This document shows, one piece after another, positions 1 through 50,229 of a stretch of 64,000 bases of DNA. The position numbers and the translations under genes are program-made. Below the pieces are notes generated by a model. It was given only the letters and a program-made list of their open reading frames with translations, made no database searches and had not been told where the DNA came from. This DNA comes from Tetradesmus obliquus (Eukaryota; Chlorophyta; Chlorophyceae; Sphaeropleales; Scenedesmaceae). The stretch is from NCBI GenBank assembly GCA_030272155.1, contig CP126193.1, positions 2,170,001 through 2,234,000 on the forward strand. Reading direction: 5' to 3'. Position 1 is the stretch's first letter. Every line of letters starts with the position of its first letter.

Positions 1-90
1 GCATACAGGCAGTTGCTTGAAAGGCATGCCGGGGTGTCCTGCTGTGCTGAGAGCAAACCAGGCCCCCTGAAAGTACCTCACCGAGCTTGC

Positions 91-152
91 TGTTGCACTG
101 CCTGGCGCAGCGTGCTACAGCGGCAAGCCCTTCAAGCCTGAAAGCCTGAGAG

Positions 153-196
<44 letters not shown>

Positions 197-240
197 ACTG
201 CCTGGCGCAGCGTGCTATGGCAAGCCCTTCAAGCCTGAAA
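91..240 (+). repeat. Two tandem copies of an acceptor plus exon start
   Basis: Positions 91-135 and 191-235 are near-identical: TGCACTGCCTGGCGCAGCGT, then the beginning of the first lectin-gene exon. They are separated by a CTG run (154-195). The upstream copy breaks off after about 14 codons and lacks the rest of the module. This is the first example in the window of duplicated exon edges. Confidence 0.8.
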
Positions 241-3200: not shown

Positions 3201-6200
3201 GTGTATGCAGTCTGCAACGGCAATGGCGTGTTTGACATCATCGGCGACTGCATCGGCACCAGTGAGTTGCAGAGTGCAGCTAGTGATGCGCGGTGCACCT
3301 ACAGCGCCCACGATCGCGGAACAGCCGCTCTCTTTTGCTGCTGTGGCTGGCGAGCCTGGGGCCTGTTTGCTCACACCGTGCCGTGCGACACCAGCAAATC
3401 ATTCACAAACTTTAGACTGCATTTTGGCTAACATGCTCATGCCATGCTGCGTATCTGGCTTGCCGCGCAGAGTGCCGCAACCCGCCAGACTCTGCCTCAG
3501 GAAGCATCTCCTGGCCAGGCTGCTCCGCTTTCAACAGCACCACAGACAGCGGCGAGCGCTGCACCGGCTCCTGCAGCAACGGCTTCTTGGGCGGCGTTGT
3601 GGCGGAGTGCAGGAACGGCGTGTTTACTACCATCGGCAGCTGCAGCGGTGAGCAAGCATGCAGAAGTTTGCGCATGTTGTAATTGAGGCGTGTATAAATC
3701 ACACATGATTTAGTACACACGCTGCGGGTATCTCGATCTCGTTGACCAAGGGATCTGCTGCCACCCCCATGCCCTCACTTCGCCTTAAAGTCAAAACATG
3801 CTCTGCATTCGCCTTTCTCGCTCCTCAGCCTAAAACATACAGAAGCATGTAAGCTTTGCCTTCGTTACCTGCAGGCCCCGTCACTTGCCCAAACCCGCCA
3901 ACCACAACCCCAGGCGTCCTGTGGTCGTGCAGTGGTGCCAGCGGCAGCGTCGGCCAAGTGTGCAGCGGCACCTGTGCAACAGGCTACACTCAGGCCGGCA
4001 GCATCAGCGCCACCTGCGGCAGGCTTGGTGCATACCAAGTGACTGGGTCATGCAGCCCCAACCGTAAGTGCTGTACCCCCGGACGCTGCTGCTCGACTGT
4101 GTTTGTGTGTGCGGCATGATTTGCCGCGTCTCTCTTGCTGCTGTCTTGGCCTGTGGCCTTGGCCCAAAGTTGCAGAGCCAATGCAGCAGTACTAGTGTGC
4201 TGGGTTTGAGACACCATTGGACCCGCCGTCCGAGCTGTATCTGGGTGTGGTGCTGCCTTGCTGCATGCAGCGTGCACCAACCCTCCAAACAACGATGCAA
4301 CGCTCAACTGGGGAGCCTGTGCCACCGCTGGCACCACTACAAGCAGCAGCACCTCTTGTGTGGGAAGTTGTGTGAGTGGCTACATCGGCTCAAAGGTTGC
4401 TCGCTGCGAGCTGGGCTTTTGGTCCATTGTCGGCAACACCTGCACAGGTATGCAACAGCAGCTAGCTGCCACGGCACAGCTTTGCAATTTCTGTCGAGGT
4501 TACAGTGACTCTGGCAATGCAAGGCAGCAAAAAGTTCTCTTGCCACGTATCAGGCAGGTGGTTGCTGCATCTGCACGCTGTGTCTGCTGCATGACAGGTC
4601 AAACAGTGTGCGGCAAAGCATGGCATTTAAGCACACACCGCAGGGGCTTTGCATGAAGTCAGCATGTGTATTGTGTGCCGCGCGTGCAGTACTGCATGGG
4701 CATCAAGTGTGTCGCATGTGTGCTGCATGTGCACCACATGTTATGCCAGGCTGCTGTTGGTGTGCTGATGTCTGGCGACATGCAAATGCTTGTCTTGTGT
4801 TGCCAACACAGGCCTCTCAGCAGGACTGCAACTGATTTAAGTGGATTCATGATCACTTGCCTGACGTCTGTGCTGCTGCTGCTGCTGCTGCTGCCGCCGC
4901 CGCCGCCGCTGTGTTCTACTGTATCTGCAGGGCCTGTCACCTGCCGCAACCCTCCCCTCAACCAGCAAGGCTACCAGTGGAGCAGCAACTGCCTGACTGG
5001 CACTGTCAGCCCTGGCACCACCTGCACTGCCACTTGCAGCAGCGGCTTCCCTCTATTTGGAGCTGCAATCTCGGCCAGATGTGACGAAGCTGGGGTGTAC
5101 CAAATCACGGGCGGCACCTGCTTCGGGAATTGTGAGTTGCTGCAGACATGCCTGTGAAGACCCAGCCAGCAGCTGCAGCAGATTGTGCCGCTGTGCTGCC
5201 GGTTAGCAGGTTCGAGGTTGCAGCACATTGAGAGAGGATAGTTACATGTGGGTCCTGGCACCATCTTGGATGGAATATGAGCCACAACATTGGTGTGTTT
5301 GCAAAGAACCGCTCAACATACGTCTACACGTGTTGCTGGCAGTCGTTAGCAACCTGCAGCTTCAGCTGACTATGCATGGAACTTGAGCCAATGGTGCATG
5401 TGCTTGCATGCTGCTGCAGCGTACCTGCCTGTCTTGCAGCTGTCCCCCGTTTGTTGTGCTGCTTGCAGCCTGTGTGTTTGTCAACAGGGTGGCTGGCTAC
5501 GACTACTCAACCTGTAGCAATGCTTCATGTGCCTGTGACACAGAGGTTGTGAGGTGCTACTAACAGTTTGATGTCTATGTTGCTGCTTGCATCGTGTGTC
5601 CCGCCGCCGAACAGGGTGGCTGGCTACGAGTGCTCAACCTGTAGCAATGCTTCATGTGCCTGTGACACAGAGGTTGTTACGTGATACTAACAGTTTGGTG
5701 TCTATGTTGCTGCTTGCAGCGTGTGTCCCGCCGCCGAACAGGGTGGCTGGCTACAACTGGGCTGCCTGCACCGCTGTCGCATATGGCAGCGGATCATCAT
5801 GCAGCGGCAGCTGCACCAATCCCTTCACAGGGTCGAGCATCTCAGCAAGCTGCTCAGGGGGGCAGTGGAGCGTGCTTGGCAGCTGCAGTGAGTTGCCGTG
5901 TTTTGTTTTTGGCTGGACTCCAGTGTGCCTGCGTGTGTGGTTAGGTTATGTATGCTTGCTTGACCTGCATGCTTTGTGCTGGTGCTGTACAGTTTGCAGG
6001 CGTTGGAGTAGCTAGGATTGTGGCTGCAAACATGGTCATCATGCTGCGGCTGCCGTACCTTACACTGCTGCAAACGCTGCTGCAAAAGCTTTTGCATTGC
6101 ATTTTGCATTTTGCTTAAGCATCCATTTTGGCACTGACCGCCAGCTGCTGCATCATGCATATACACATGTGGCTTTTCACGTTGCACACAACCTCTGCTG

Positions 6201-10735: not shown

Positions 10736-11869
10736 GCCTCATAATGAGCCAGCACACCACAGTTGCTGGCAACCGAGCAATGTTTGGGGCGTGCGATGAG
10801 TCAGTTACAGCGTGCATGCATGTATAGGGGCAGCAGTATGCACACTGCAGTGTGGCGCTGGGTTGTGAAGATTTGCAGGGGACACTGTTGGCTGTCGACT
10901 GTTTCAGGTGTGTGTTTGGCAGAGCTGTGGCTGTTGCAACACTCTTGCACCTGATGTGTGGACTGTGAGGCAATGCAGATGAAGAGCTGTTGGCTGCGCT
11001 GCCTTCAGCCTGGCGTCATTTGCAGTTCCAGGATCAGTGTGATGGCTAAGGGCACGGCATGTTTGTGTCCATGTGCTTTCTGGGCAACACTTTGTCTTCA
11101 TTTGAAGAAGAAGGTTCAACCTTCAAGTTGCAACGTTCACTGTGGAGTGGCTGTGAGCAGCCATTGCTTGCGGACTCAACAGCTAATGCATGCAGCTTCG
11201 AGCCACTAGAACATTTGCCGGCATTTTGCCCTGTGTACACTGGAGATATAAAGCGCATTGCGCACGCGCGCGCTGCCACAGACTGCAGCCTGTTCAGCAT
11301 ATGCTTCATAGCTATGTGTGTGACGGAATACAGGGCAGCAGCAGGTTGCCGCCAGTTCTCTGGCAAAGTCATCACGGGGCTTGCCGTGCTTCATTGGTGA
11401 CGTGATGGTGATGATTCTGCTGCATGGCGGCTTTGCTATGACTTGATGATACGATGGTTGCTCCCAATTGGGTGATCAACAGGCAATCAGCGTCATGAGG
11501 ATGGTGATGGTCAGGCGTTTGATTGTCCCTGCTTCAAAGCAGGGATGTGATCTGCAGCATGCATGAAAATGTGATCTGCCGCGTGCGTGAAGATGTGATC
11601 TGGCGCATCCTGATCATCCTGAGCAGATCTGTTGCATGCGTGCAGATTGTGCTCAGAGTCAACTGGCTGGTATACACACAGAATAGCTTGTTCTAAACGC
11701 ATGTTGGACTCATTGCTGGATGATGTTGTGCAGGAATTAACCACTCAGAAACCACAGTGCATACCTTGTAGGTGGTGAGCTGTATCATTGTACGCGTCAG
11801 TTGAGGCAGTGAGCTACAGCTGTATAGCTAGCCCAAGGCTGTTTGTCACGCAGACAAACGGGCAGGCAG

Positions 11870-12946: not shown

Positions 12947-12948
12947 TT

Positions 12949-12992
12949 GAGTACTAGCGCGAGTACCGCACTGGCAGTGCAGCGAGTACTCA
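12949..12992. other. Imperfect inverted repeat (hairpin)
   Basis: GAGTACT at the left pairs with AGTACTC at the right, and an inner GCACTG/CAGTGC pair surrounds a single G. It lies just after the third copy of the 390-bp repeat. Function unknown. Confidence 0.5.
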
Positions 12993-14631: not shown

Positions 14632-14706
14632 TACCACGGCGCAGTGGTTAGCGCGCACTGCTGCTAGCAGCGCTGCAAGCGGCGCTGCAACTTGAACTCT
14701 GGACCA
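14632..14706 (+). other. tRNA-like A-box segment (possible SINE or tRNA relic)
   Basis: GGCGCAGTGGTTAGCGCG matches a eukaryotic tRNA A box with its D-loop, and TTGAACTC about 45 bases on is a weak B-box match. Acceptor-stem pairing and a standard anticodon loop are not evident, so this is not called a functional tRNA. It could be a tRNA-derived SINE head or a degenerate tRNA. Confidence 0.25.
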
Positions 14707-15009
14707 GCCCGACGCTGCAGCCACACAGAGCCTGCTTGCTTGCACAGCACACACCTAGACAGGAGCTGAAGTGACCTTGCACCATTCAAAGTGATGTGCC
14801 ATGTCTCTCTTGTGATTGCCAGCGGATGAAACCTTGCGAACTTCTACACAGCTATGGAAGTTCAGAGGGTAACGGTCGGTCACATGGAGCCGCGCCACGG
14901 TGCTGATCAGCACTTGGCTGGTCATGCATTGAGCTTCATGAAAATTCAAATAAGATGCCATTGAAACGTCAGCAGTATTAACAGTACCGTCGCACGCTTC
15001 TCGGTGATA

Positions 15010-15136
15010 ATGGGCAAGGGGATTCAGGAGCGAGCAGAGCAGCAACAAAGGCTGTTCCATACGCTTTCCACCCGCATAGACGTCTGTGAAGCGCGGCACG
15101 GCAGCCTGCCATCACCGGACGATGCGCAGAATTCTC

Positions 15137-15179
<43 letters not shown>

Positions 15180-18100
15180 TGATGAAGACATATCTGACGA
15201 TGCCTTTTTCAGGCAAGTGCATCTGTGCGCGCTGACGCCACATTTAAATATGCTGATATCCCACAGCATGCATCCTTCACTGCGCTTGCGCACAGCCACA
15301 GCAGCAGCGAGAGCAGCAGCGCACTGCTAGCAGGAGTAAGCCGCATGACAAGCAGCAGCTCGTGCTGCAGGGACTCGGAGGTACCCCACCCCAGGGCACT
15401 GCTGGTTGATACACTCTGGCCCCTCACACATGAGACAGAGACCGCTTCAAGCGACCTTGTGCCTCATGCTGCGCCAAAAGCAAAGGTAGGTACTACCTAC
15501 TAGTAGTACTACTAGCAGTACTTGCTCAAGCGGAGGTAGCGCCATCACCATCTGGTGGCCAAGCATCTACCACAGTGAAGCAATGGTGCTTGCTGACGAG
15601 CGCAGCAGATGATACTTATGGCAGCTGCGCTGGCGGCAGTCGTGTTGCGAATTGCGGCAGCCTGCTGCCTGCACTCCTTGCAGCAGTAGACCACACCAGC
15701 TGCTGCGGTTGCTCTCGCACGCAGCATGCTGCTCCCCAACGCAAAGCTATTATGTTGTTATTTCTCCTGCCTTATCTGCAGGAGCTGTACGGCATCCTGC
15801 TGCAGGGCCTGCCACGGCCACCCTGGTACATGATCAGCCCTGATGGCAGCTTCAGGTGGGCAGGTGCCCAGCCAGCAGCAGCAGCAGCAACAGCAGCAGC
15901 TGCAGCAGACCCAGCAGTGCTGATAGCATTGGTGGCTGTGGAGGTGGCAGCAGCAGCAGCAGCAGGGCTGCGTGCTGCTTGAGGTGGAGCTTTAGTATGT
16001 GGTGCATGCATGCTGATGCCTTAAAGTTGGCTTGCATGCCCTATCTGCCTGCAAGGCGTTGTTGCGCGCACCTGTGTCAGCAACACGCGACCCGCAGCCA
16101 ATGCTGTTCTCATATGCGCCGCTGCTGGTGCTGCTGCTGCTGCTGCAGGATGCTGTGGGACTTCCTGCTGGTGAGCAGCACACATGCGCGTGCACACAAC
16201 GTTGTACTTGCTGCTGTAAAGGCAGAACATCCCTTATGGAAAGGTGCCAGAGCATTTGGGCTGAGTATCTGCGTGTTTGTTTGCCTCTCAGAGAAGCACA
16301 CCAGCCCACTGCACAGTATAAGCATACTATGGCACCAGCATAGCAACAGCCTACGACACAGTGAACCTTGTCTTTGCAATCACTGCCCAAACAAGAGCAA
16401 TCATCACATCAAATATCAATGCTCAAGCACGCGCATTGCTCTGCGTCTGAGCCTGATCCCTTGCCAGGCTGTATTCAGCCTAGCGCTGGTGCTGCGCACA
16501 CAAGCAGCGGGCCAGCTTTGCAACACATCATGCCACATACTCACTGCAGCTCCTGCCTTGTCATGCCTCCATCACATATCTCTGCCAGGCCGTGTTCAGC
16601 ATTGCGCTGGTGCTGTACGTGCCTGCGCTCATCGCCTTCTACAGCGCCGCCACGGAGTGCGTGTTTGCAGCGGGCCACCAGCCCATCTCTGAGCGTGACC
16701 CGCTGGCTCCTCCGCAGCCGCCGCGCTCAGTGCGCTTCATGACGGTCACCAACATGGCTTTCCTGGTGAGGCACCATTGTCTCCATTTGCCGATTGATGT
16801 TGTTGCAATGAGGGGTCTATGTGTGTGTGGATGTGGATGTATGTGTGGATGTGTACGGATCAAGGCTCAACACATACGACATCAAAGGTGGCAAACTGTA
16901 CGAGGTGGGCCACCAGCCTATCTCTGAGCGCGACCCGCTGGCTCCTCCGCAGCCGCCGCGCTCGGTGCGCTTCATGACGGTCACCAACATGGCTTTCCTG
17001 GCGAGGCACCACTTTGTTCTTCTATGGCACTGTGATGCTGTTGGTAAGGTTTAGTTTTGGTTGTGGATATGGATGTGTAGGGTTTTGTTAAAATACCGTG
17101 CAGAAGAGCAAGATTGACATTGTGATGCGACATGCGTCGACTCACATGCCACATGATCGTGTCTCATCTATTGCATTTGCATTTGGCAGGACAGCAGGCT
17201 GGTGCCCACATGCTGTTCAAAGGTGGGGCTGCCAGCAGCTGCGCATCTGCTTCCTGAACTCATTTATATGCCCACCCCAAATGTGACTGTCCCACTGCTG
17301 CCTCTGCTTTGTGAATGCACACTATGCTGCTGCTCCTTTTCTGCTCCTGCTACAGCACTACGCAGCTGGACATCATCCTCAACTTCCCAACAGGCGTCGG
17401 CTCGACGCAGACATCTGCATGATTGAGTACTGCTACAGCCCCACACCCTCATCACTACGTTGCTGTCCTACTGCTGCCTCTACTGCTTAAGAGAATGCTA
17501 CAAACCGCAGCTCGGTGTCGTCATCAACTTTCCAGTGCTGCGCATTCGCTCTGTTTCTACTTATTTACTGCCTTCACACTGTGCCGCCGCCCCCTTGCCG
17601 CTCCTGTTCTTGCCTGAAATCGCAGCTGGACATCATCTTTAACTTCCTGACGGGCGTGCGGCGCCTCAACCACGACACAGGCATGATTGAGTACTGCTAC
17701 AGCATGAGGGCCGTGGCCTGGGCCTACTGCCGCAGCTGGCTGCTGCTAGATGTGCTGTCTGCACTGCCGGTGGAATGCATGGTGGTGCTGGGCATGGGGG
17801 GACACAACTACAACCTGGGGCACCTCAACAGGTAGGCAGATGTTGTTGTAAGTCACACTTGCTTGTATGCTTTTGTCACACTTTTTAGTCGGCGGTTGTC
17901 ACATCTTAGTGCATGGTGGTGCTGGGCATGGGGGTGCACAACTACAGCCTGGGGCATTTGAACAGGTGAGTCGGCATGTCACAATCTTTGCGCACAGTCG
18001 TTACAGAATTTTTTGGCAGATGTCACACTTTTGTGTGCGGTGGTGCTGGGCATCGGCAGGCACAACTACAACCTGGGGCACCTCAACAGGTGGGTGTGTG

Positions 18101-18342: not shown

Positions 18343-19455
18343 CTGCTCAAGGTGTTTGGGCTGCGGCGCAGAGCACATGGAGACCCCTTCAGGATCATCA
18401 ACAGGTGAATGCTTCTGCGTGTGCTGCGTCTACAGCAGCGCGACACAGCGTACTGCAAATCCCTGCAGAGTATAGCATATCATAGGCAGGCGTAGGGTGC
18501 TGGGAGGTTGATATGATTACACCTGACTGCGTCATGGCAGTGTTGGTAGGTACATCAGCTGTTCGCAGGTGCAAGTAGCAGCTGTCTCCCTGGGCAGGAC
18601 GGTAAGCGCAACGTGCCAGCACTCCCTCCCATCTCGCCTTGCCCCTGCTGCTGCTGCTGCTGCTGCTTCTGCATCCCTGCTGCCCAGGCTGCCGTGTGTG
18701 CGGCGCAACTTCAACTACTCGATGCGGCTGGTGCTGCTGGCCTCGAGCCTGCTGCTGGTGGGGCTGCACTACTTTGCATGCGCGCTGTGGCTGGCGCTGC
18801 GGGTGCAGGTGCGGGTCTGTGCCTGGTATTAGGATGTTGACTAAAGCTGATCATGGCTGTGCGGTTGGTGCAGGTGCGGCAGCGCAGCATTTCACCTGCC
18901 TGGTTGATCCAACCGTTATCGAGGCACGCTAGTACTTGGGAACACAGCGCACACGCACGTATAGTACAGATATGTTTGATACCCACGGACTGCTGCTGCG
19001 CCTGCAAAGCTTCCCTGAGGGCACCTGGCCTGTGGCGATGCATCTGTTGGAGGTGGATGCGTTTGAAGGCATAGCACAACACAAACATCATCATGTCTTA
19101 TGGTTGCGTCTGCTGCAGGGCTTTCCTGAGGGCACGTGGCCTGTGGCGCTGCACCTGGTGGAGGTGGATGCCGGCCAGGCGGTGAATGTGTACCAGGCCT
19201 GGACCTGGAGCGTGTTCGCAGTCACCTCCGCCATGATCGGTGCGTGAAGATCTTTGCAGCGTGAAATCGCAGCAGTGATTGGTGTGGCAGTCGCATTACA
19301 GCATCAAGCAGCGTGATGAGATTGTGGTGCAGCTGCAGGGGCGCTGCCAGGCATACAGCTGCTGCTGTCTACAACCGGGCTGGTGGTCGAAGCGCTGCTG
19401 TGTTCAGGTGTTGATGTGACTCTTTTGCTGCTGCTGCTGCCGCTGCTGCCGCTGC

Positions 19456-19503: not shown

Positions 19504-22500
19504 AGGCCTGGGCTACGGCTCCTTCCCCCCGCTGACCTTCCCCGAGGCTGTGCTGTGGATCCTAGAGATGATCTTCATGGCAGGGTGAGAGGGCATGCAA
19601 GAAAACAAACCGCTGCACACCGCAGTGTCTACCAGTTTTGAAACCGGCAGCAATCATCGCTTTGGTAGTAACTCATCTGTCTTCTGCATCCAACTGCACT
19701 GTGGCATGTCTGCTGCCCGCTGCAGGGGCTTTGCCACAGTGAACGGCTTCATCTTCTCAGCCATCCGCCATTGGCTGTCCTGTTTTCTCATCTGTACTGC
19801 TTGGTGACATCCTGTGGCGTGTGCTCTGCGCTGCTGCAGAGGCTTTGCGACTGTGAACGGCTTCATCTTCTCAGCCATCCTGGAGAGCCTGGCCACACGG
19901 GCGCGCTACAAGGCCAAGATGGTGCAGGTATAACTGATGCTGGGTCAGCACCAGCACCACAAGTGCCAGCACCACCAGTCAAACACCATAGAGTATGTTA
20001 CCTGGTTACTGCAGCGCTGCTGCGATGATTGCAGCGTAGCAGATTTACTTGTCATTCTGCCTGCCGCCAGAGGGAGCTGGTGCAGCTGCACCCAAACATT
20101 GTGCGTGATGACCAGCAGTATGGCGCTGCCTTACATGAATTTCCCCACACCACACCACTGCCCCCCGCACGTGCAGCACGAGGTGGAGCGGCGCCGGCTG
20201 CCCGAGGCGCTGGCGTTGTGTGTGCTGATCAGGTGCTTGCTAGGTCCACCATTTGCATTATGACACCAGTACCCATTGTCACACCCGCAGGTGCAGCACG
20301 AGGTGGATCTGCGGCAGCTGCCGCAGGCGCTGCGCCTGCGCGTGGTACTGGTCTTCTGCTTGGTTGGCTTATCAGTAGTGTGATGACACCTGTAACACAT
20401 GATTTATCCTGCAGGTGCAGCACGAGGTGGAGCGGCGGCAGCTGCCGCAGGCTCTGGGCCTGGTACAGATCCTCTGCTCGGTTGGCGCACCAGTGTTGTT
20501 ATGACTCTGTGACCCATTGTCACACTCACAGGTTCAGCACGAGGTGGAGCGGCGCCAGCTGCCGCAGGCGCTGGGCCTGCGCGTGGTACAGGTCTTCTGC
20601 TTGGTTGGCTTGTCAGTAGTGTGATGACACCTGTAACACATGCTTCACCCTGCAGGTGCAGCACGAGGTGGAGCGGCGCCAGCTGCCGGAGGCGCTGGGC
20701 CTGCGCGTTGTACAGGTCTTCTGCTTGGTTGGCTTGTCAGTAGTGTGATGACACCTGTAACACATGATTTATCCTGCAGGTTCAGCACGAGGTGGAGCGG
20801 CGGCAGCTGCCGCAGGCGCTGGGCCTGGTACACATCCTCTGCTTGGTTGACGCACCAATGCTGTTACGACTCTGTATCCCATTGTCAATCTCGCAGGTTC
20901 AGCACGAGGTGGAGCGGCGGCAGCTGCCGCAGGCGCTGGGCCTGCGCGTGATACAGGTTGCTTCTGCTTCATTGGCTTATAAGTAGCGTGATGACACCTG
21001 TAACACATGCTTCATCCTGCAGGTTCAGCACGAGGTGGAGCGGCGGCAGCTGCCGCAGGCGCTGGGCCTGCGCGTGGTACAGGTCTTCTGCTTGGTTCGC
21101 TTATCAGTAGTGTGATGACACCTGTAACACACGCTTCACCCTGCAGGTTCAGCACGAGGTGGAGCGGCGCCAGCTGCCGCAGGCGCTGGGCCTGCGCGTG
21201 GTACAGGTCTTCTGCTTGGTTGGCTTGTCAGTAGTGTGATGACACCTGTAACACATGCTTTGTCCTGCAGGTCCAGCACGAGGTTGAGCGGCGCCAGCTG
21301 CCGCAGGCGCTGGGCCTGCGCGTGGTGCGCTTCTTCCAGCTGAAGCACCGCGACAAGAGCATGCAGGACAGCGGCGAGTTCATGGGCCAGCTGGCGCCAG
21401 GCCTGAGGCTGCAGGTACGGCACAGCCGGGTGTTCTTAGTGCCAGCGATTAGGATCTTCTGCCTGTTTTGAGTGCAGAGATCATGGGCCAGCTGGCAGGA
21501 CAGCGGCGAGTTCATGGGCCAGCTGGCACCAGGCCTGAGGCTGCAGGTGCGTGAGAGGGTCATTGTTTAGCTAATAGATTGGTGTCAATGGCGGAGTTCT
21601 GGCTGGCTGTTGTGAGCACGGAGGTCATGGGGCAGCTGGCGCCCGGCCTACGGCTGCAGGTGCGGCTCCGTTACATGTGGTTGAGGTGACAGCCAGTTGG
21701 TTTGGCTGGCTGTTGTGAGCACGGAGATTATGGGCCAGCTGGCGCCAGGCCTGAGGCTGCAGGTGCGGCTCCGTTACATGTGGTGGAGGTGACAGCCAAT
21801 TAGTTTAGTTGGCTGTTGTGAGCACGGGGGTCATCGGCCAGCTGGCGCCAGGCCTGCGGCTTCAGGTGCGTGGGAGGATCATAGCACAGCTGATAGAATG
21901 GTGACAATGGCGGAGTTTTGGCTGGCTGTTGTGAGCACGGAGGTCATGGGCCAGCTGGCGCCCGGCCTGAGGCTGCAGGTAAGGCTCCGTTACATGTGGT
22001 TGAGGTGACAGCCAATTAGTTTGGCTGGCTGATGTGAGCGCATACATCATGGGCCAGCTGGCGCCAGGCCTGCGGCTTCAGGTGCGTGGGAGGATCATAG
22101 CACAGCTGATAGAATGGTGACAATGGCGGAGTTTTGGCTGGCTGTTGTGAGCACGGAGGTCATGGGCCAGCTGGCACCCGGCCTGAGGCTGCAGGTGGGG
22201 CACAGCCGGTGTACTTGGTGGCAGCGAGTAGGATCTTCTGCCTGTTCTGAATGCAGAGATCATGGGCCAGCTGGCACCCGGCCTGAGGCTGCAGGTGCGG
22301 CTCCGCTGTCCTTGTTGCCAGGGGGTGCGAAGCCCGATTGGCTGGCCATACACAGCAGTCTATGCTGCTGAATTACGCGTGTTTGGGCTGACAATGGCTG
22401 AGGTTTGGCTGGCTGTTGATACTATGGGCCTACGGCTGCAGGTGCAGCAGCGGAACAAAAGGCAAGCAGTTATATCATAGTCGGAGCTGAGCTATATCTG

Positions 22501-25500
22501 GCTTTGCTGGCAACTGCTTATAAGCAGCTAATATTAGCTAATGTAAGCTGGCGCCAGGCCAGACGCTGCCAGAGGAACGTAGCCAAACATGTTTGGTGAC
22601 AGCAACGAAGTGCAACGGACTGCTGTGAGTGCAGAGATCATGGGGCAGCTGGCGCCTGGCCCGAAGCTGCAGGAATGTTACTGACGTTGTTACTTTTCTG
22701 CTTGTGCTGCCAGGTGGCGCTATCCACTGTGGGTGGGCTGCTATCTAAGCTGGCAGTGCTGCGTGACACGCCGCAGCTGCTGCAACGCACAGCGCTGCTG
22801 GTGGAGCACCAGGTGGCACCAGAAGGTATGTCACTCGCTGGGCACGATTGCAAGTGCTTGATCTTGCAACTGCTGTAACCAGTGTAACCAGTGTAACTAG
22901 TGTCAGTGATGTAACCAGCACAGCGCTGCTGGTGGAGCACCAGGTGGCACCAGAAGGTATGTCACTCGCCGGGCACGATTGCAGCTGCTTGATCTTGTAA
23001 CTAGTGTAACCAGTGTAACTAGTGTCAGCGATGCAACCAGCACAGCGCTGCTGGTGGAGCACCAGGTGGCACCAGAAGGTATGTCACTCGCTAGGCACGA
23101 TTGCAGCTGCTTGATCTTGTAACTGCTGTAACCCGTGTAACTAGTGTCAGTGATGTAACCAGCACAGCGCTGCTGGTGGAGCACCAAGTGGCACCAGAAG
23201 GTATGTCACTCGCCGGGCACGATTGCAGCTGCTTGATCTTGTAACTAGTGTAACCAGTGTAACTAGTGTCAGTGGTGTAACCAGCGCAGCGCTGCTGGTG
23301 GAGCACCAGTGGAGCACCAGGGGAGCACCAGTGGAGCACTAGTGGAGCACTAGCACCAGTGGAGCATTATTGTCAGTGGTGTAACCAGCGCAGCGCTGCT
23401 GGTGGAGCACCAGGTGGCACCAGAAGGTATGTCACTCGCCGGGCAAGATTGCAGTTGTGTGTACGAGTTGCTTGATCTTGTAACTGCTGTAACCCGTGTA
23501 ACTAGTGTCAGTGATATAACCAGCACAGCACGGCTGGTGGAGCGCCAGGTGGCACCAGAAGGTGGGTCTTGAACACGGGGTACCTTCCACACTACTGCCA
23601 CCTGTATACCTTGTCGCACCAGTTTGCCTGGTGTAAACCTGTGTAAGTAGTAGGTCATGGTCCCCAACAGAAACCATTGCACGGCCCCTCAGGCCAATTG
23701 CCGTTCTGTAAAAAAAACTGTTCCGCTCACAACCTCATTGCTTGTGCCGCATGTCCCGTGCACCGCAGGCCAGCTCATCACCATCCCTGGCACGCCGCAC
23801 CGGCTGCTGTACTTCCTCGCACGCGGTTACGCTGACCTGTACATGGGTGACACCCTCATCGACACACTCGTGGCGGGTGACACCTTTGGTGAAGCGGTAC
23901 GTCTCTGGTCTTGCCGACAGATGTATTGCTCTTGTTGCCCCATGTCGATGCACGGCCCGTGACGAAACGCTGAGACACGCCTCTCGCAGAACGGCGGCAG
24001 CACGTGACCCTGCTGCTGCTGATGTACCTCTTGAAATGCGTATGCATGTAGGTAGGTAGGTGCGCACCTACCCGCATCCGCACCTACCCGCATTCACACC
24101 TACCCGCATCTGCACCTACCCGCATCCGCACCTACCTGCATCCGCACCTACCCGCATCTGCACCTACCCGCATCCGCACCTACCCGCATCCGCACCTACC
24201 CGCATCCGCACCTGCCCGCATCCGCACCTACCCGCATCAGCACCTACTTGCATCCGCACCTACCCGCATCCGCACCTGCCCGCATCTGCACCACCCACAT
24301 CCGCACCTACCCGCATCCGCACCTACCCGCATTCCGCATCTGCACGTACCCGCTTCCGCACCTACCCGCACCCGCGCCTATCCGCATCCGCGCCTATCCG
24401 CATCCGCACCTACCCGCATCCGCACCTACCCGCATTCACACCTACCCGCATCTGCACCTACCCGCATCCGCACCTACCTGCATCCGCACCTACCCGCATC
24501 TGCACCTACCCGCATCCGCACCTACCCGCATCCGCACCTACCCGCATCCGCACCTGCCCGCATCCGCACCTACCCGCATCAGCACCTACTTGCATCCGCA
24601 CCTACCCGCATCCGCACCTGCCCGCATCTGCACCACCCACATCCGCACCTACCCGCATCCGCACCTACCCGCATTCCGCATCTGCACGTACCCGCTTCCG
24701 CACCTACCCGCACCCGCGCCTACCCGCACCCGCGCCTATCCGCATCCGCACCTACCCGCATCCGCACCTACCCGCATTCACACCTACCCGCATCTGCACC
24801 TACCCGCATCTGCACCTACCCGCATCCGCGCCTATCCGCATCCGCACCTACCCGCATCCGCACCTACCCGCATCTGCACCCACCCACATCCGCACCTACC
24901 CGCATCCCGCATCTGCACCTATCCGCATCCGCGCCTATCCGCATCCGCACCTACCCGCATTCGCACCTACCCGCATTCACACCTACCCGCATTCACACCT
25001 ACCCGCATCCACCTACCCGCATCCGCACCTACCCGCATCTGCACCTACCCGCATCTGCACCTACCCGCATCCACACCTACCCGCACCCGCACCTACCCGC
25101 ATCCACACCTACCCGCATCCACACCTACCCGCATCCACACCCACCCGCATCCACACCCACCCGCATCCGCACCTACCCGCATCCGCACCTACCCGCATCC
25201 ACACCTACCCGCATCCACACCTACCCGCATCCACATACACCGTCCACTCACACCCTCCCGCACCTCGTCCATCCCCCTGCAGGCGCTGCTGCCTGTACCG
25301 CCCCCGGGCGAGCTGCCGCCGCGCCTGGGCGGGCTGTGGCGCTCCACCAACAGCTTCAGCGCGCGCTTCTGGCCCACGCTGTTCAGCGTGCGCGCGCTGA
25401 GCAACTGCAGCCTGGTGGTGCTGGACGCTGACAAGTTTGGGGAGCTGCTTGAAGAGTATGATTGGGTGAGCGCATTGTGTAATGCATTATAGTGTAAGCA

Positions 25501-26014
25501 GCGGCAGCTGCAGCCTGGTGGTGGTTGATTATGACAAGTTTGTGGAGATGCTGCATGAGTATGATTGGGTGAATGTGCAGTGAGCGCAGCAGCAGGAGCA
25601 GCAGCTGCAACAGCAGCAACTGCAGCCTGGTGGTGCTTGATGCGGACAAGTTCGGGGAGCTGCTGGAAGAGTATGACTGGGTGAGCACGGCGTGCTGCGT
25701 CCTGTAGTGTAATATTGTGTTTGAAGCAGCAGGGGCGGCAGCTGCAGCAGCAGCATCAACTGCAGCCTGGTGGTGCTGGATGCTGACAAGTATGGCGAGC
25801 TATTGGAGGAATATGATTGGGTGAGAGGGCAGTGAACATGTTCAGCAGCAGCAGCAGCAGCAACTGGATATGGACAAGTTTGCAAAGCTGCTGGAGGAGT
25901 ATGACTGGGTGAGTGTATAGAGTGCTTGCATTCAGAGGCATGCACGCAGTCTAGGGACATATCCCAGTCTTGAGCGTGCAGTGAGCGCAGCAGCAGCAGC
26001 AACAGCAGCAGCAA

Positions 26015-26064
<50 letters not shown>

Positions 26065-29582: not shown

Positions 29583-32500
29583 CTAGTTGTCTGGCAGCGC
29601 TGTGCCGCGCTCCAGGTTGGCCTTGATCTCCGCGGTGTGCTGGCCAAAGGCCCTCGCAATCTTCTTGTTGAAGTGCGCATTGCGGGAGTTGATGTAGTCA
29701 ACGTCGTCATCAGCACGGGCGGCGCGGCGGCGGCTGAAGGCTGCGCGCTGCGCCTGCTTGGCGTTGAGCTCGGCCACCATGGCGTCCACAGCTTCAGGAG
29801 CCACCTGCGGCAGCAGCAGCAGCAGTGAGTGTATCAATAAACTAGCGATTGTAAGGCACTCTGCCACACAGAGAGCAGGGAGCGCAGCTTGCCAGCTAGG
29901 TAGCGGTGGCGAGCAGCAGCCCTCTGTCCTGCCAGCAGCTTCCTTGTGTATGCCACATTACGTATGAGTGGAAGATGTTGCTAGACAGGCATTGATAGCA
30001 TCTCGTGCTGCTCAACATGCAGCAGCTTCCCAACACCAGAGGCGCATCAACGCAGTGCATCGACGAAGGCAGAAGGGCTCAAGACTGTGTCTCTTAACAT
30101 GCGGCGCCGCGCTGCAAACAGCCGCCCGAGGCTGCCTGCTACACACGCGCACGCGCAGCAGCAGGCATCCCCAGCAACTGCCGGGCAACGCCGTTCAGTT
30201 ATATGCTCTTGATACCTTGGTCATCACAGCCCTCAAACACACCAGCCAATGCAATGCGTCAACCACACGCTGCCAATGTTTCCGAAACACCAATGCTGCT
30301 TCCCCAGCCATCTCAGCAACCAACAGTTGTATCAGAAGCAGCTGGCTGGCGCCTGTCGTACAACGCAGCACACCGGTTGCAGCTTCCCTAGCCAACAATG
30401 TAACACCCGAACCTTGAGCCCTGAATGCACCTGGTGCCCCTCCCCATACTCCATTGTAGTCCAGCGCCAGCACCCTGTCTGGCTGCTTTCATTGCAGACA
30501 CTCAACCCCTGAACCCACACTCAAACAAACTCAAAACCCCAATCACCCTGAAGCCCCACGTGGTGCCCCTTGCCATACTCCATGGGGTCCAGCGCCAGTG
30601 CCCGGTCTGGCGCTGCTTCCTTAGCAGACACTGAACCCCTGAAACCCTGGTCAAACACACTAAACGCTCAAACCCTACCACCACAAAACCCCACCTGATG
30701 GCCCTTGCCGTACTCCATGGGGTCCAGCGCCAGTGCCCTGTCTGGCGCTGCTGCCTTTGCTGCCTCGTATGCTGCCAGATCTGGCGCGATCTTATCTGCG
30801 CGCCGCTCGTACGCCAGGTGCGTGGCGCGCTGCGTGAACACCTCCTGCCCTACAAGGTTGGGCTTCTTCTCCTGTAGCAATAGTGCGCATAGCAAGTGAG
30901 GTGTTTGTGGCTGGCTATGCAAGAGTCTAGCATGCAGTGTGTGTGGCGCGCTGCTAAAACCTCCTGCCCCACCAGGTGCTTCTTCTCCTGCAGCATTACT
31001 GTGCAAGGCAACCAGAGTGTTTGTGGGTAAGAACGAGGCAGCCAAGCAGCCTAACACACAGTGCGCGTGAAGATGTCTGAGCCACCAGGTTGACGATCTT
31101 CTCCTGCAGCCGTTGCGTGTGTTTATTAAGCGAGTGGGAAACAGCCTCAGCATCCACTGCAGAGCTCTGGTTGCACGCGCAGCAGAAAGGTACCAATGCT
31201 TTGACGTGCAGTGTGGCAAGCTCCCATCCATGCCAACAATACATATGCGTGTGCGCCAAGCCTGTTCCAACAGCATGTAGACCTTTGCTCAACTGCACAG
31301 GTGCAACGCCAAACTGCATGCACTCCAACACGCTCTGCACGGCTGCCTCCAGCCGCACCCAAACACCCACCAACACACACAACAAACCATAGAGCCTAAC
31401 AGCAGCACAGCAGCAGCCGCACCTTCTTCTTGGCCTTGGCCTCCGCCACCTCTGCACTCTCCAGCCGGTGCGCCTGCTCAGGGGTCAGCCCCAGCCGCGC
31501 TAGCTCCTCCGCTCGCTTCTTCTGCTTCTCCTCGTGCCACTTCTTACGGCCGTCGCCCTCCTCACCCTTCTCCGCAGCCTGCAACATGCATCATGGAGTG
31601 GCAACAAGATGCATAAATGATAAGCGTTGATGAAGACTTTGCACTGAGACAGGAAAGCAGCAAGTGGCTGGAGGCGGCCGTCGCCCTCCTCGCCCTTCTC
31701 GACAGCCTGCGGGACGAGTTAGGCGGGACAGATCATGTGATGTGCAATGTGCGGAACACGTGTAGAAGCAGATGCATCCGCTGCTCCTCGTGCCACTTCT
31801 TGCGGCTGTCACCATCCTCGCCCTTCGCGGCAGCCTGCGGGTTCAAATCTGTGCACCAAGAGTGAGAACACAACACGCTGGCTGCTGCACCGTGCCACAG
31901 CGCAGTGCCCCACCACCGACAGGCACCGACAGCACTCCCGGCAACCCCGCAAGTGCATGGTCATACACAAACATATGGAAACACTCAGCTGCCATCAGTC
32001 TACGCCGCGCCTGCCACACATCACCCGGCTGCCAGCCGCACTCCAAGTGCCTGCTGCTGCTGCTCACCCGTTGCCGCTTGCGCTCCGCGATGATGGCGTT
32101 CTCATTCGCCTTGCGCGCCTGCTGCATCTTCTGCTTCAGCTCGTACAGCTTCCGCTGCCGCGCATTCATGCCAGCATATGGATCGCCACCCCCTTCCTCA
32201 CCATCCGCATCTGCATCTGCTGCTGCTGCTTCTTGTTCATCCTCAGCAGCATCTGCTGCTGCTGCTGCTGCTGCTGCACCCCGGCCGCTGCCAGACGGTG
32301 CTTGCTGCTGCTGCTCGCCATCACTATCTGCTGCTGCTGCCGGCCTAGCCTGCTGCTTCTGCTGCTGCTCCTGCTGCCGCAGCGCTGCCAGCCGCGCGCG
32401 TGCTTCTTGTGTTGTGTCTATGGCTGTGCCCAGCGGGTCTGACCGCAGCTGCGCTGCCTCTGCTGCCTTCTCTGCCTTGATGCGCGTGAGCTCCTCGAGC

Positions 32501-40445: not shown

Positions 40446-41881
40446 ACACTGCAGCAACCAGCTGGTCAGCAACCTGGTGTGCATGATCACAGCGCTGCCT
40501 GGGCGGGACGTGGTGGGCATGGTGCTGCGGGTGCCAAGGCTGCTGCTGGTGGACGACATGCCAGGTGAGGCTTGCAGATGTTGCAGAAACAAGCGGCATC
40601 AAAACACCATGTCGCTGTGCTTGTAAAATGCGGAGGCCTCAGGGTATCCTTGTACTGGCAGGCTCATTGTGGGTGTGGGGACTTGCACGAAGCTGCAGTA
40701 GTGGCAGGTGATCATAACACTGGTTGTCGGTGGTTGTCAAGTGCCATTGGCTCCACTTTTGCCTCTCTGCATGGGATGGGTGCCTTTTCATCTTTGCCTG
40801 ATACAAATGCCTCCAACATGCCAGCTGACTTTGCTATTTTTGCTGCCGCCTGTTGCTCTGCTGCTGCGCTTCCTGGTGTGTACTGCACCACCAGCGAGGC
40901 TGGAGCGCATAACCAAGAAGCTGATCGCTCTGCACCCATCTCATTCGCATACAGTGATAGCAGGTGCGCCAACAGCCTAGTGGTACTGAGGTTGGTGTGT
41001 GGTCGCAGCTTGATGCTGCTGCTCTGGTGGCTAGTGTTAAGACAGCGCCTTTACTTGCAAAGGCAGCGGAACTATGATCACTCCGCCACACTGGTGCAAA
41101 CTGCCAGCGGCTGTGTATTGCTTTGTGCATTGCTTGCATTCATCAGCCGCCTGCGTGCATCAGCCCAACAGCACGACGTACTTGGCCACATGCTATGCCA
41201 CATGCATGCATACGCCATAAAGGGAAGGCTCTTTCACATTACATGTGGTGCCATTGCCTCCTTTGCTGCCCCCGCAGGCATGAAGAGCACCCGCAGCTAT
41301 TGCTGCGCATGCGCTACTCTACCTTGGCCATCACAAAAACTGTGCTGCGTATGGTCCAACTTGTCTGTTGGCCTGCACGCATTCTAGAAGACAACCCGGT
41401 GCTGCTGCTGCGCATAGCCAGTCAATGCATGCCCCATTAGAACATCCATGCCACCTGCATTGCATCCTTGCCCTGCAGGCATCCTAGAAGAGAAGCCGGT
41501 GCTGCGGCTGCGCATGGACTACTACCTCAGTCTCCACAAATACACTGTGCTGCTTTGCCTTCTTCCGCGCAGGCATTCTGAAGGTGCTGCTGTTACGCAA
41601 GAACTATCACCTCAGCCGTAACATGATCTTTGCTGAAAGTGTGTTACGTTGCCTCACCACCTGCAGGCATCCTAGAAGAGAACCCGGTGCTGCTGCTGCG
41701 CATGGACTACTACCTAGGGGATGACATCATGCTGCTGGACCAGCTGCCCATGGAGATAGCCAACATGATGGTGCTCGGTGATGAATCAGGGCTGGGCCAC
41801 CTGTACAAGTACTGGAGGAACAAGCTGGGGGAGCCCTCGGGGGAGCAGGAGTGGCAGGAAGGGGGCAGCAGCGCCGCGTGA
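39018..41881 (+). CDS. mTERF-like organelle protein (short)
   Basis: Five exons in phase give 328 residues: 39018-39282, 39490-39817, 40455-40564, 40895-40963, 41667-41881. Residues 1-50 (MHLITRSAPTCSCGSRHRAF...) are basic and Ser/Cys/His-rich without acids, like an organelle transit peptide. The body has repeated helices with a PxLLL spacing (LVLSEPELLL, VLRVPRLLL, EENPVLLLR), the hallmark of mTERF repeats, which bind organelle DNA or RNA. It is short for the family, so some repeats may be lost or diverged. Exon 2 contains a direct repeat of about 27 bp (KPSSTDALQAF twice). A TGTAA at 42273 lies 392 bases after the stop. An alternative is another alpha-solenoid family. Confidence 0.6.
40074..40145 (+). 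repeat. Copy of mTERF-like exon 2 end
   Basis: CTGCCTGATTCAGCAGCAGC... GAGCTGCTGCTGGCCAGCAG repeats the end of the real exon (39759-39817), again followed by a donor (GTGAAG). Confidence 0.85.
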
Positions 41882-42200
41882 GAGTGAGTGAGGTGTTCAA
41901 TTGACTGGTGGTGCCTTGTGCCACAGAGTGTTGGGGCTGGGGCACCTGTACAAGTACTGGGCCGGCAAAGTAAAGCAGCCTGCTGGGGAGGGGCAGCCGC
42001 AGGAAGGGGCCCGGCAGCACTGTGTGAGAGTAAGTGAGGTGCTGAAACAACTGGTGGTGCCATGGTGCCACAGAGGGATGGTGCCACAGAGTGTTGGGCC
42101 TGAGGTGCTTGTTCAAGTATTAAAAGCCCAAGCTGGGGCAGCCACCAGGGGAGCAGGAGTGGCAGGAAGGGAACGGCAGCGCCGCGTAAGAGTCGTTTAC
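41270..42200 (+). repeat. Tandem copies of the mTERF-like last exon: five starts, three ends
   Basis: Starts resembling GCATCCTAGAAGAGAACCCG lie at 41278, about 41381, 41480, 41573 and 41667 (real), spacing about 95-105 bp; three of the upstream ones keep CAG acceptors. The end of the exon (GGGCTGGGGCACCTGTACAA to the stop) recurs at about 41933-42030 and, more diverged, 42093-42195, within the presumed 3' untranslated region. Confidence 0.85.
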
Positions 42201-46711: not shown

Positions 46712-47995
46712 GACCTCCCCGCCTGCAAAACCGGCCTGTGCCCGCAGCAGCAGCGCCGCACTGCTGGGGTCCATTTGGAAGGTCTGCAGCAGTGCATTGC
46801 TGATGTGGCGCAGCGTGGATGGCTTGCTGAAGATGCTGGCAGACACCAGCGGTGGTGCTGCAGCAGCAGGGGTGATCAGAGAAGTGCAGCAGGCAGGCAG
46901 ATGTGAGAAAATGGCTTGCTGAAGATGCTGGCGGAGACCAGCGGTGGCCCTGCAGCAGCAGGGATGATCAGAGAAGTGCAGCAGGCAGCAGATGTGAGAA
47001 ATGGCTTGCTGAAGATGCTGGCGGAAACCAGGGGCAGTCCTGAAGCACCAAAGGCAGGCAGAATTGCGGCAGGCAGGCACATGTAGGGAAATCGAAATGT
47101 GAGAAATGGCTTGCTGAAGATGCTGGCGGACACCAGCAGTGGTCCTGCAGCAGCAGGCGTGCCGTCAGCCACATCATGTACACGTGAGACACAACCCAGG
47201 TGGCACAAGCAAGGTGATGCACCGAAGCAGCAGGCATGTCCAAGGTGTGGCACCAGGTGGGCAGCAGGTGAGGAGTTCTTTGGTTTACTGTTAATGCTGC
47301 TGTGAGTGATCATCGTGGTGCTTTTAATTGTTCAAGGTGGAAAACAATTGACACTGCAGATGCTTGCGCAGTTGGTGATGTACAGCACATGCAGCCCAAA
47401 CCAAAGACACGTCAGCACCACACCCGCTACAACAGCCCACCTGTGCACAGCACTGCAGCAGCAGCGCGCTTGGCAGCAGCAGCACCAGTCGCCTCCCCTC
47501 GCCTCACAGCAGCAGGCAGCTCCACATACAGCTGCACCAGCAGCTCGCCACCCAACACACTCCCAGCCAGCACACTACTGCTGCTGCTGCTGCTGCTGGT
47601 GGTTTTGTTGCTGTCTAGATCTAGCCGCATACCAGCAGCCATTGCAGCTGCCAAGCTATCTGCAAGGCCGTCAGCCGCAGCACTGCTGCTGCTGCTGCTG
47701 CCAGATGGCATGCCTTGCAGTGCTGCAACTGCCACCTGTGACACCTGCTGGTAGTCATCATTTGCTAGGGTTAGTAGTATCTCAATCAGCGCCTGCCTGC
47801 TGCTGCTCAGCGCCCTGCTGGCACCATCCAGCAGCTGAGCAGCAGAATCAGCAAGCGCTGCTCGCACAGCTGGCTGGGGATGGCTCAGCAGCCGCGGCAG
47901 CGTCATTGCTAGCAGCGCCTGCACCTTGCTGCTGCTGGCTGCTAGCCAGGCTGCATCCTGCTGCACTGTGAAGTCGGTAGCCGGGCCTGCAGAGC

Positions 47996-48027
<32 letters not shown>

Positions 48028-49338
48028 GGTGGCTTTGGAGTGAGGCTGCTGCTGCCGTTTGCTAGGTCTGATTGTGCGGAGCAGCTCACTTGCTGGCTGC
48101 TGCTGCTGCTGCTGCTGCTGGTAGCCTGTAGAGACAGCTGCTGCAGCAGTGCTAGGGCATCTGCTGGGCTGGACACATTGACGCTGCTGCTGATGCTGCT
48201 GCTTGCAAGTGCCAGCACCCCTTGGTTCTGCTGCTGCTGGGAATCTGGTATGTGCTGCACTGCTGCATCACCTAGTGTCATGATTACGGCTTGCGTCATC
48301 ACCTGCAGGATGAGGGCAGTGCTGCTGCTGCTGGAAGCTGCACCAGTGACAGGCACCCCTGCTGCTGGCGGCACTGCAGAGCGGCAAGACAGACCAGACA
48401 GATGCATCAACCATCACCACATTGGGTGTGCTGCACTGCACCAATGTTGGCAGAGCTAGACCGAATGAGTGCACTAAAAGCCGCAAAGTTGATGTACACT
48501 ATGTGCAGTACAGCGGCACTAGGCAACTGGCTCACAGCCAACAGCAGACACAAGCACGCTGCAGGATGCTGCAGAGTGTTGGTCAGGCACCACATCACAG
48601 AAAAAAAAACTCATGCAAATTAGCCGCTGCTGATGATCATATGCACGAGAGATCACCCACCTGCTACCAGCAGCTGCTTGGCCGGCCCACTAACTAAGCC
48701 AGGAAGGAAGAAGGACCACAATGTAGACAACTCAACAACATGCATCAATGCTAATCAACCAATCACTCACCTGCAGCCAGCGGCTGCTCAGCCGGCCCAC
48801 TGGCCAGCCCAGGCAGGCGAGGACCCACAAAGTAGACAAAAGCAGAAACACACTTTGCTGCTAACAGAAGATCACCCACCTGCAGCTAGCAGCTGCTTAG
48901 CCAGCCCAGAGGCCAGTTCAAGCAGGAACAAGGACAATGTAGAGACCTCAAAAACATGCATCAATGCTGCACAAATGTCTGCACTCCACCTGCAGTCAGC
49001 CGCTGTTTAGCCAGCCCAGAAGCCAGCCCTGGTAGGAAGGAGGAAGGACCATAGTGTGTCACAAATCCATTGGAAACACACATCGCTGCCTACGACAGAT
49101 CACCCACCTGCAGCCAGCAGCTGCTTAGCCAGCCCACTAGCCAGCCCTGGCAGGAAGAAGGCCAGCCGGGGCCCACCCCCCACAGCACCCACCACTGCCT
49201 GCAGCGCCAGCAGCGCAGCGTGCCGCAGCGCTTTGCTGCCCTTGCCTGCTGCCGCCACTTCCTGATCTGCTGCTGCCAGGCAGCTGCTGATGAGCATGCC
49301 TGACAGCGGCGCTGTGGAGGGCTGCTGCAGAACAGCCG

Positions 49339-49378
<40 letters not shown>

Positions 49379-50229
49379 AGTGTGGTGCTGTTTGGTGTTG
49401 CTGCCGAGGAGAGCGGAGATGATGCTGAACACCTTGAGCCGCATCTGCAGGCCAACAGCAGCAAAATAACAAAACACAACAGGCGTCAGCCATTCAATCA
49501 AGACACATGTAGGCGTATGGGCTGAATTGGGCTGCTGCCCAGCACAGTAGCCGACAGCTGACAGCCTGGACGATCTGCACAAGATTGCATCCTTGACCTG
49601 CCTCACATCACTTGCCGCAAGCATATGACATGATGCGACAGTAATGCAAGGCGCGCGCGGCTCATCAGTTGTAGCACCTACACTACCACCATCACAGGCT
49701 GTCAATCTCAACACCAAAATACAATTCAACGGCACCCCAAATCCCAAGAAGTCCTACACCTCCCCCTCACCTCCTCAGTTGCTGCGCCAGGTGGCAACGC
49801 CAGCAGCCGTGCTGCTGCCTGCAGCACTGGCAGCACCTGATCCTGCTCCAGACCCTGCACCCGCTGCAGCAGCGCCAGCACGCACTGCAGCGCAGCCTCT
49901 GCAGCGCGGTCGTTCTTCATAGCTGGCACTGTTACGGCTGCAGTCCGGCCGGTACCACTGCTGCTGCTGCTTGCCGGAGACCTGGCAGCTGCTGCTGACT
50001 CAAGCATGAACAGCAACGGGTACATTACATAATCAAAGCATGCCTTCAAGCCAACTGGTTCTGCTGCTGCGAGTGCAGCTGCGAGACTGTCGAGCGTCTG
50101 CTGCAGCTGCTGTGGCTGTGCTCGCAGGAACAGCAGCTGCGAGCACAGCGGCTTGAGTTGGCTGAACACGCGGGCCTTTGCCTCTGCTGCTGCTGGCCCA
50201 CCCAGCAGCTGCGCTATTGCTGCCTCCAT
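42779..50229 (-). CDS. TTI1: TTI1, HEAT-repeat subunit of the TTT (TELO2-TTI1-TTI2) complex
   Basis: Seven exons in phase give 1,630 residues: 50229-49771, 49444-49108, 48373-47441, 46857-46420, 46016-45553, 45278-44886, 44647-42779. The N-terminus LKACFDYVMYPLLFMLES matches the conserved TTI1 start (human: LQQYILFPLRF). The central LGQLVGQNADYVVDGVCKRL followed by HPRAPQLLAALL is the most diagnostic TTI1 motif, and the C-terminal part begins GYVLPFLHILQSV. TTI1 works with TELO2 and TTI2 as an HSP90 co-chaperone that stabilises PIKK kinases (TOR, ATM, ATR). The protein is longer than the human one (about 1,090 residues) mainly through Gln, Ser and Ala runs. The start is the first ATG; a TTG-initiated extension is unlikely. 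Confidence 0.88.
46815..47160 (-). repeat. Four tandem copies of a TTI1 exon start
   Basis: On the plus strand GGCTTGCTGAAGATGCTGGC recurs at 46821, 46914, 47005 and 47107. The copy at 46821 belongs to the real exon (acceptor at 46858). The others are diverged exon starts in the preceding intron that code variants of PPLVSASIFSKP. Unit about 91-102 bp. Confidence 0.9.
48650..49145 (-). repeat. Five tandem copies of a TTI1 exon end and donor
   Basis: The real exon end (coding LAKQLLAAG, donor at 49107) has copies beginning near 48655, 48768, 48880 and 48985, each with CACCTGC-type donor sequence (plus strand) and the following codons. Unit about 105-115 bp. Confidence 0.9.

Follow-up and report, generated by a model that had tools for sequence, protein, structure and literature searches.

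Tandem arrays straddling exon–intron junctions in genes of the green alga Tetradesmus obliquus

A 64-kb stretch of the Tetradesmus obliquus genome (hereafter the window; the genome of this alga is 104.66 Mb in 17 contigs) contains genes whose introns carry tandem copies of exon edges together with their splice sites, raising the question as to whether short duplications accumulate at exon–intron junctions in this alga, and whether they are aimed there. Local direct repeats in the window were found with TRF and self-BLASTN, and self-comparison of the 64 kb gives 20 clusters of them, the larger of which are also in the TRF list. A first-pass annotation of this DNA had described at least 15 junction-straddling arrays in five multi-exon genes; we count 17, with nine in an ion-channel gene, three in a cyclophilin-SYF2 gene, two each in TTI1 and an mTERF-like gene, and one in a lectin-like gene. 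The window also contains a TTI1 C-terminal domain, a Tic20 gene, and a bacterial-Ig/cadherin-like domain stretch, and no known structured RNA was found in it at Rfam gathering scores.

The reconstructed channel gene matches T. obliquus protein OEZ85_011652 (P0001) at 97% identity over the whole query, and its exons (12 placed) were fixed by aligning P0001 to the window. Copies are present at 9 of the 22 internal junctions of these exons, on the acceptor side of E2, E5, E7, and E8, and on the donor side of E1, E2, E8, E9, and E11, so that E2 and E8 have copies on both sides:

16672..17011, plus strand: E1 donor side (exon 16589-16765); copy 235 bp downstream, its donor broken (GTGAGG to GCGAGG)
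17318..17703, plus strand: E2 acceptor side (exon 17626-17831); the real acceptor is preceded by a diverged copy at a distance of 257 bp
17776..18095, plus strand: E2 donor side; two exon-end copies with intact donors (GTGAGT, GTGGGT)
19002..19171, plus strand: E5 acceptor side; one copy with acceptor CTGCAA, 111 bp upstream
19699..19880, plus strand: E7 acceptor side; one copy with the CTGCAG acceptor intact, 113 bp upstream
20163..21324, plus strand: E8 acceptor side (real exon 21271-21414); nine upstream copies of intron end plus exon start, with two diverged intron subtypes
21363..22676, plus strand: E8 donor side; nine downstream copies, with the intron subtypes as a mosaic
22781..23563, plus strand: E9 donor side; six downstream copies with a period of ~122 bp, of which an 11-bp repeat has scrambled one
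25403..26165, plus strand: E11 donor side (exon 25283-25465); the exon end recurs downstream in about five diverged copies

In the P0001 alignment, the start of E8 (VQHEVERRQLPQALGL) occurs in ten copies including the real exon, the outermost being altered, and its end (MGQLAPGLRLQ) also in ten including the real exon, some of them altered. The end of E9 (ALLVEHQVAPEG) is present in six copies including the real exon, plus one that is scrambled, and the end of E11 (CSLVVLDADKFGELLEEYDW) in about six diverged copies including the real exon. The 11-bp repeat, GTGGAGCACCA, is expanded at 23298-23350 within one E9 decoy copy.

The cyclophilin-SYF2 gene matches OEZ85_011655 (P0007) at 87% identity over the whole query, and with its exons fixed by P0007, three junctions have copies and the exon at 30692-30874 is flanked by them on both sides. 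Two copied junctions in TTI1 are backed by a Scenedesmus protein (P0127), which marks the real exon ends; at each junction, all of the copies align to one single stretch of P0127. Junctions in the mTERF-like gene come from the gene finder described below, and a single open reading frame tried from this gene has no Pfam family. The arrays in these four genes are:

30428..30760, minus strand: cyclophilin-SYF2 donor side; two copies with a period of ~135 bp, adjoining exon 30692-30874
30818..31026, minus strand: cyclophilin-SYF2 acceptor side; copy 121 bp from exon 30692-30874
31521..31841, minus strand: cyclophilin-SYF2 acceptor side; the exon near 31423-31581 is preceded, in the minus-strand direction, by two copies
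46819..47161, minus strand: TTI1 acceptor side; copies upstream of the real exon, which runs down from ~46857
48645..49164, minus strand: TTI1 donor side; the exon end near 49109 is followed downstream by four copies
41368..41715, plus strand: mTERF-like acceptor side, predicted by the gene finder only
41789..42193, plus strand: mTERF-like donor side, predicted by the gene finder only; period 145 bp, an uncertain junction call in that the 'real' site is without GT
5457..5754, plus strand: lectin-like acceptor side; two copies at an offset of 124-127 bp precede the presumed real acceptor (5709), with the exon assigned by inspection only

The AG is gone in the middle copy of the lectin-like array (gcttgcat for gcttgcag). 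Another cyclophilin gene, on contig C14 (1117009-1117405), has two adjacent matches that overlap on the family profile (87-115 and 84-150), the pattern expected of a junction copy.

Outside the window, we sampled 25 loci of 10 kb each at regular spacing on eleven contigs, of which 24 were used; locus L011, which has long near-identical repeats, was excluded from the counts, and L014 contains some N. Self-matches at offsets of 40 to 600 bp number 160 in the window and 24 loci, as compared to three and two in two control sets, resampled block by block (1 kb) with order-2 composition. Arrays were collapsed in 151 steps, 123 of which have offsets of 90-149 bp (with multi-copy arrays counted several times), and these steps were reduced to 64 arrays by dropping those with an offset >200 bp or no surviving unit and by merging overlaps. 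With one value per array, the offset is 90-150 bp in 53 of the 64, with a median of 122.5 bp. Junction arrays are present in 10 of the 24 loci, whose predicted proteins appear mutually unrelated (TOR-like in L023, FKBP-like, VPS18-like, and malate-dehydrogenase-like, names assigned by reading). Junction-straddling tandem arrays extend beyond the window and look widespread in the genome.

Positions relative to genes were assigned with a gene finder of our own, on which the gene models rest except in three genes. It was trained with homolog-supported exons, using the protein-verified channel exons and shrunken splice-site matrices, and the version after one round was used; it was run on sequences with the arrays collapsed, which makes every array count a single time and prevents false junctions from arising in the copies. 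Of the 12 exons of the channel gene, it places 11 starts and 6 ends correctly, and it covers 1360 of the 1740 bases of exon, with the low score for exon ends arising because the collapse shifts donor ends. An array with an offset of up to 200 bp was labeled as a junction array if it touches a predicted junction within 8 bp. By these predicted junctions, the 64 arrays in the window and 24 loci comprise 41 junction, 10 intron-only, 10 intergenic, and 3 exonic arrays, and when the non-intergenic arrays are placed at random within genes, the mean number at junctions is 16.7 and the maximum is 28 in 2000 draws. Equal density of arrays in mid-intron or intergenic DNA had been set beforehand as a refutation of junction bias; outside the window, the density is not equal, in that 28 of 47 arrays lie at junctions, 8 are intron-only, another 8 intergenic, and 3 exonic, with 12.7 expected at junctions and a maximum of 22 in 2000 draws. 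Without the richest locus (L023), 20 of 35 are at junctions, against a null mean of 8.4 and a maximum of 18. A stricter label, in which the junction is at least 5 bp inside the unit, gives 23, 30, and 29 junction arrays of 64 with finder versions 0, 1, and 2, against null means of 12.5, 13.1, and 13.2 and maxima of 21, 21, and 23 of 300 draws.

The channel and cyclophilin-SYF2 genes, with exons verified by protein, have all 12 of their arrays on junctions; for units that are not entirely exonic, the expectation is about half (p = 3e-4 if the arrays are independent, with array limits set by hand and two offsets >200 bp). Self-comparison of these two genes revealed no intron-only array of the 90-150 bp class. 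The finder does mislabel some arrays, in that 5581-5708 and 23151-23273 were counted as intron-only and lie at the lectin-like acceptor (by eye) and at the E9 donor (by P0001), respectively.

The first-pass annotation had put the size of the units at about 90-140 bp; most offsets are indeed 90-150 bp, with the E1 donor (235 bp) and E2 acceptor (257 bp) copies of the channel gene lying outside. It had also reported arrays on both sides of exons, and junction pairs divide roughly equally between 20 acceptor-side and 17 donor-side. In these 37 pairs (those with <18 nt of exon were excluded from exon-part statistics), the exon part of the unit is 18-117 nt, where the largest value (E8) is an overestimate, since the E8 copies diverge from the real exon beyond ~55-60 nt. 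The exon part is 24-66 nt in 32 of 37 pairs, versus 44% in the null (KS p = 9e-6), and the intron part is <40 nt in 3 of 37, versus 31% in the null. Among the decoys, 16 of 20 acceptors and 17 of 17 donors have their splice dinucleotide, as do 19 of 20 acceptors and 14 of 17 donors taken as real, with the donor figures biased because the collapsed gene model took the decoy's donor. Two of the four decoy acceptors without AG resemble true losses (CTGCAC and CTGCAA) and the other two resemble mapping or model errors; that 4 of the 37 sites taken as real are without GT or AG counts against label quality. Units had been described as unlike each other in sequence; each of the three that were searched occurs only at its own locus in 104.7 Mb. 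An introner-like dispersed family is therefore excluded for those three, and a dispersed element is rejected as their source.

The exon and intron parts of the units differ markedly in divergence. Across 34 pairs, mean identity is 0.93 in the exon part and 0.61 in the whole intron part, with random 120-mers at 0.52. A neutral simulation, in which detection follows a similar rule, copies evolve neutrally, and the real exons are constrained, gives intron identities of 0.78-0.80, and pairs with exon identity of at least 0.9 and intron identity <0.62 make up 38% of those observed, versus 0.7-4% of those simulated; neutral decay alone is thus insufficient as the cause of matches ending at splice sites. 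The aligned intron alone, at 18% divergence, had seemed to fit neutral decay, a figure in which only the alignable intron is counted. Intron parts score z >3 in 13 of 34 pairs and z <1 in 9 of 34, and pairs with z <3 retain residual intron homology (Wilcoxon p = 1.3e-4); the intron parts were therefore co-duplicated in many pairs. This speaks against copying of the exon edge only as a general rule, with which 9 of the 34 pairs are compatible.

Within the exon parts, 42 copy pairs (some of them decoy–decoy, and one a TPR-like protein repeat) differ by 7.5, 7.7, and 17.6% at the three codon positions, with 114 nonsynonymous and 104 synonymous differences, roughly the pattern of an unconstrained copy paired with a constrained exon. 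Comparison of decoys with each other gives exon identities of 0.86-0.91 versus 0.59-0.70 for introns in three channel arrays, and 0.78 versus 0.55 in a fourth, and in the E8 donor array the intron subtypes are shuffled as a mosaic among near-constant exon copies. In our reading, this contrast and the shuffling reflect exchange or conversion that has its anchor in the exon edge, the alternative being constraint on the decoys; divergence between decoys of the E8 donor array is 0.107, 0.063, and 0.248 by codon position, and such a third-position excess could also stem from constraint on the copies. The earlier suggestion that preservation is often best in the copies next to the real exon holds as a trend only, with Spearman rho of -0.66, -0.37, -0.77, and -0.40 in four arrays (p = 0.054, 0.33, 0.076, and 0.6, respectively).

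The reading that we favor, at slightly better than even confidence, is one of recurrent short tandem duplication, tolerated where the spare junction falls in an intron, together with exon-anchored homogenization. Genes would undergo recurrent tandem duplication of ~90-150 bp segments, perhaps through a short template switch or patch repair, and a segment with some 25-65 bases of exon edge and ~50-110 bases of flanking intron would place a spare edge and splice site inside the intron. The real exon would remain whole, and the copy could be tolerated as an unused decoy that the spliceosome may skip. Once two copies are present, the array could grow by unequal exchange; exon edges would stay alike through exchange or conversion anchored there and through survival only of outcomes sparing the real exon, and the intron part of the unit would drift, such that junction arrays would be visible longer. 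Several observations count against this reading. Purging of exonic duplications is only weakly visible, with 3 exonic arrays (of 64, one of them a TPR-like protein repeat by reading) versus 6.5 expected; the 9 of 34 pairs without intron homology look as if the exon edge alone had been copied; and gene conversion tracts of ~45 bp are short by usual standards.

A plausible but somewhat less probable account, compatible with the favored one, is that duplication is uniform along genes and that junction arrays only persist or are recognized longer via their alike exon part. Because exon parts are better preserved than intron parts, junction arrays are recognizable longer, and the difference in identity (0.93 and 0.61) suggests that most junction pairs are older than the visibility limit of an intron-only pair. 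With automatic labels, the junction excess fades among the best-aligned arrays, the numbers being small: where the non-coding part has an identity of at least 0.75, there are 5 junction, 3 intron-only, 6 intergenic, and 0 exonic arrays (p = 0.11), and at 0.80 or above, 4, 2, 3, and 0, respectively (p = 0.12). Nonetheless, the excess persists at thresholds of 0.65 (17 junction, 7 intron-only, 8 intergenic, and 1 exonic; p = 4e-4) and 0.70 (11, 6, 8, and 1; p = 0.013), which argues against uniform duplication, as does the lack of intron-only arrays of this size class in the channel and cyclophilin-SYF2 genes. Alternatively, duplication could be directed to junctions, for example by breaks or nicks from co-transcriptional splicing, R-loops, or exon-positioned nucleosomes, with units centered on the splice site. 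We consider this unlikely, even though the ratio of junction to intron-only arrays outside the window (28:8, with 12.7:21.7 expected) points that way, and purging, which only removes junction arrays, is unable to produce a junction excess. The narrow range of exon parts fits directed duplication, but is also expected if units with short intron parts are purged. Simulated neutral decay lengthens visibility only 1.06-1.34x for exon parts of 15-60 nt, which under neutral decay would be too little for the junction excess; however, exon parts are kept alike beyond neutrality, and the true visibility may therefore be much longer, making the simulated correction too small. The equal unit size of arrays labeled intergenic and intron-only also speaks against direction, as does an excess that is not significant at non-coding identities of 0.75 or 0.80. 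The junction-biased duplication process originally proposed for this DNA stands with respect to the junction excess; its aim at junctions is possible but unproven, and the excess shrinks when the non-coding part must align.

That the copies are functional alternative or cassette exons under selection appears improbable. In its favor, several of the E8 acceptor copies keep the reading frame and combine a CTGCAG acceptor with a GT 60 nt further on, and some arrays have a third-position bias between decoys. Nonetheless, the nonsynonymous differences are as many as the synonymous ones (114 versus 104), the E9 donor copy (~38 nt) would shift the frame, and the copied motifs are present once, without repeats, in P0001, P0007, and P0127, all of them predicted proteins; P0005 (by name, a transcript assembly of a relative), which spans the channel gene up to E8, also has no repeats. 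The case for selection on the decoys as coding exons is weak. An origin of the arrays as assembly artifacts, for which we found no point in favor, is very unlikely, because the copies have diverged (exon 93%, intron 61%) and differ between loci, are often bounded at splice sites, differ from gene to gene, and are on several contigs.

To our knowledge, tandem duplication across splice junctions is known from single cases. In plants, short tandem duplications of tens to about a hundred bases arise from patch repair or adjacent nicks and resemble the algal units in size and tandem arrangement; we know of no tie of these to splice junctions or of their growth into arrays. The nearest precedent that we found is the potato RdRp gene, in which one tandem genomic duplicate across an intron–exon boundary made an intron (PMC4974935). 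That case concerns one gene and one event, detected as a new intron, whereas the alga has many genes with arrays of 2-10 copies on both donor and acceptor sides, and no sign of intron gain was seen in P0001, P0007, or P0127; in the alga, a potato-like event is recurrent, occurs on both junction types, and grows into arrays. The Rogers/Hellsten model of intron gain, as told in PMC4974935, likewise has intragenic tandem duplication supplying splice sites, but with an AGGT-bearing unit in an exon and splicing restoring the message, whereas most algal units straddle an existing junction and only 3 of 64 are exonic. Introner elements (PMC9860276) also have a wide effect on the introns of a genome, but insert alike copies into many genes, unlike the three algal units tested, each private to one locus. 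In the open-licence PMC literature listed by our searches, we recognized no report on this alga that describes arrays across splice junctions.

Scaled up from the 28 junction arrays found in 240 kb, the genome would contain ~12,000 (bootstrap 5,200-20,500), provided that the 24 loci represent it well and the arrays are labeled correctly. Events in such numbers, in the thousands, of varied age and on both junction sides, would offer a measure of how duplications succeed or fail in making introns, cassette exons, and decoy splice sites, and exon-edge copies in introns would be a natural test bed for gene-structure evolution; such a genome would also allow links of DNA damage and repair to splicing to be tested. 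Junction arrays may bear on the long introns of T. obliquus, whose mean intron is 462 bp; four further green algae have means of 230, 302, 284, and 270 bp (PMC5966456). A bolder proposal, which we regard as doubtful, is that duplication tied to splicing or transcription aims at exon–intron borders and has seeded some ten thousand exon-edge copies in introns, with exon-anchored exchange maintaining their match to the living exon; introns would then constitute a renewable store of spliceable exon ends.

Repeats of other kinds are also present. CAG/CTG tracts are very numerous throughout the window (1-64000), both coding and intronic, with poly-Q and poly-A in the proteins, and the CTG tracts are not of the junction-array kind. 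Neither is a 397-bp unit between the lectin-like and channel genes (11874-12940; 2.7 repeats), which is larger than the junction units, nor a 16-bp minisatellite, CGCACCTACCCGCATC, whose ~72 copies at 24063-25232 take up most of one channel intron and leave all three forward frames open for >440 codons. The excluded locus L011 has long repeats throughout (1-10000), such as one of 1.37 kb at 99.8% identity and an offset of 1473. Several occurrences of a short sequence, GAGAGAGGTCTGTTACAGGGGTGGGCAAGCTATCGCCCT, lie 3′ of the TOR-like exons at L023 (7600-9300), with two stretches 100% identical over 99 bp, and these repeats may be fragments of a mobile element.
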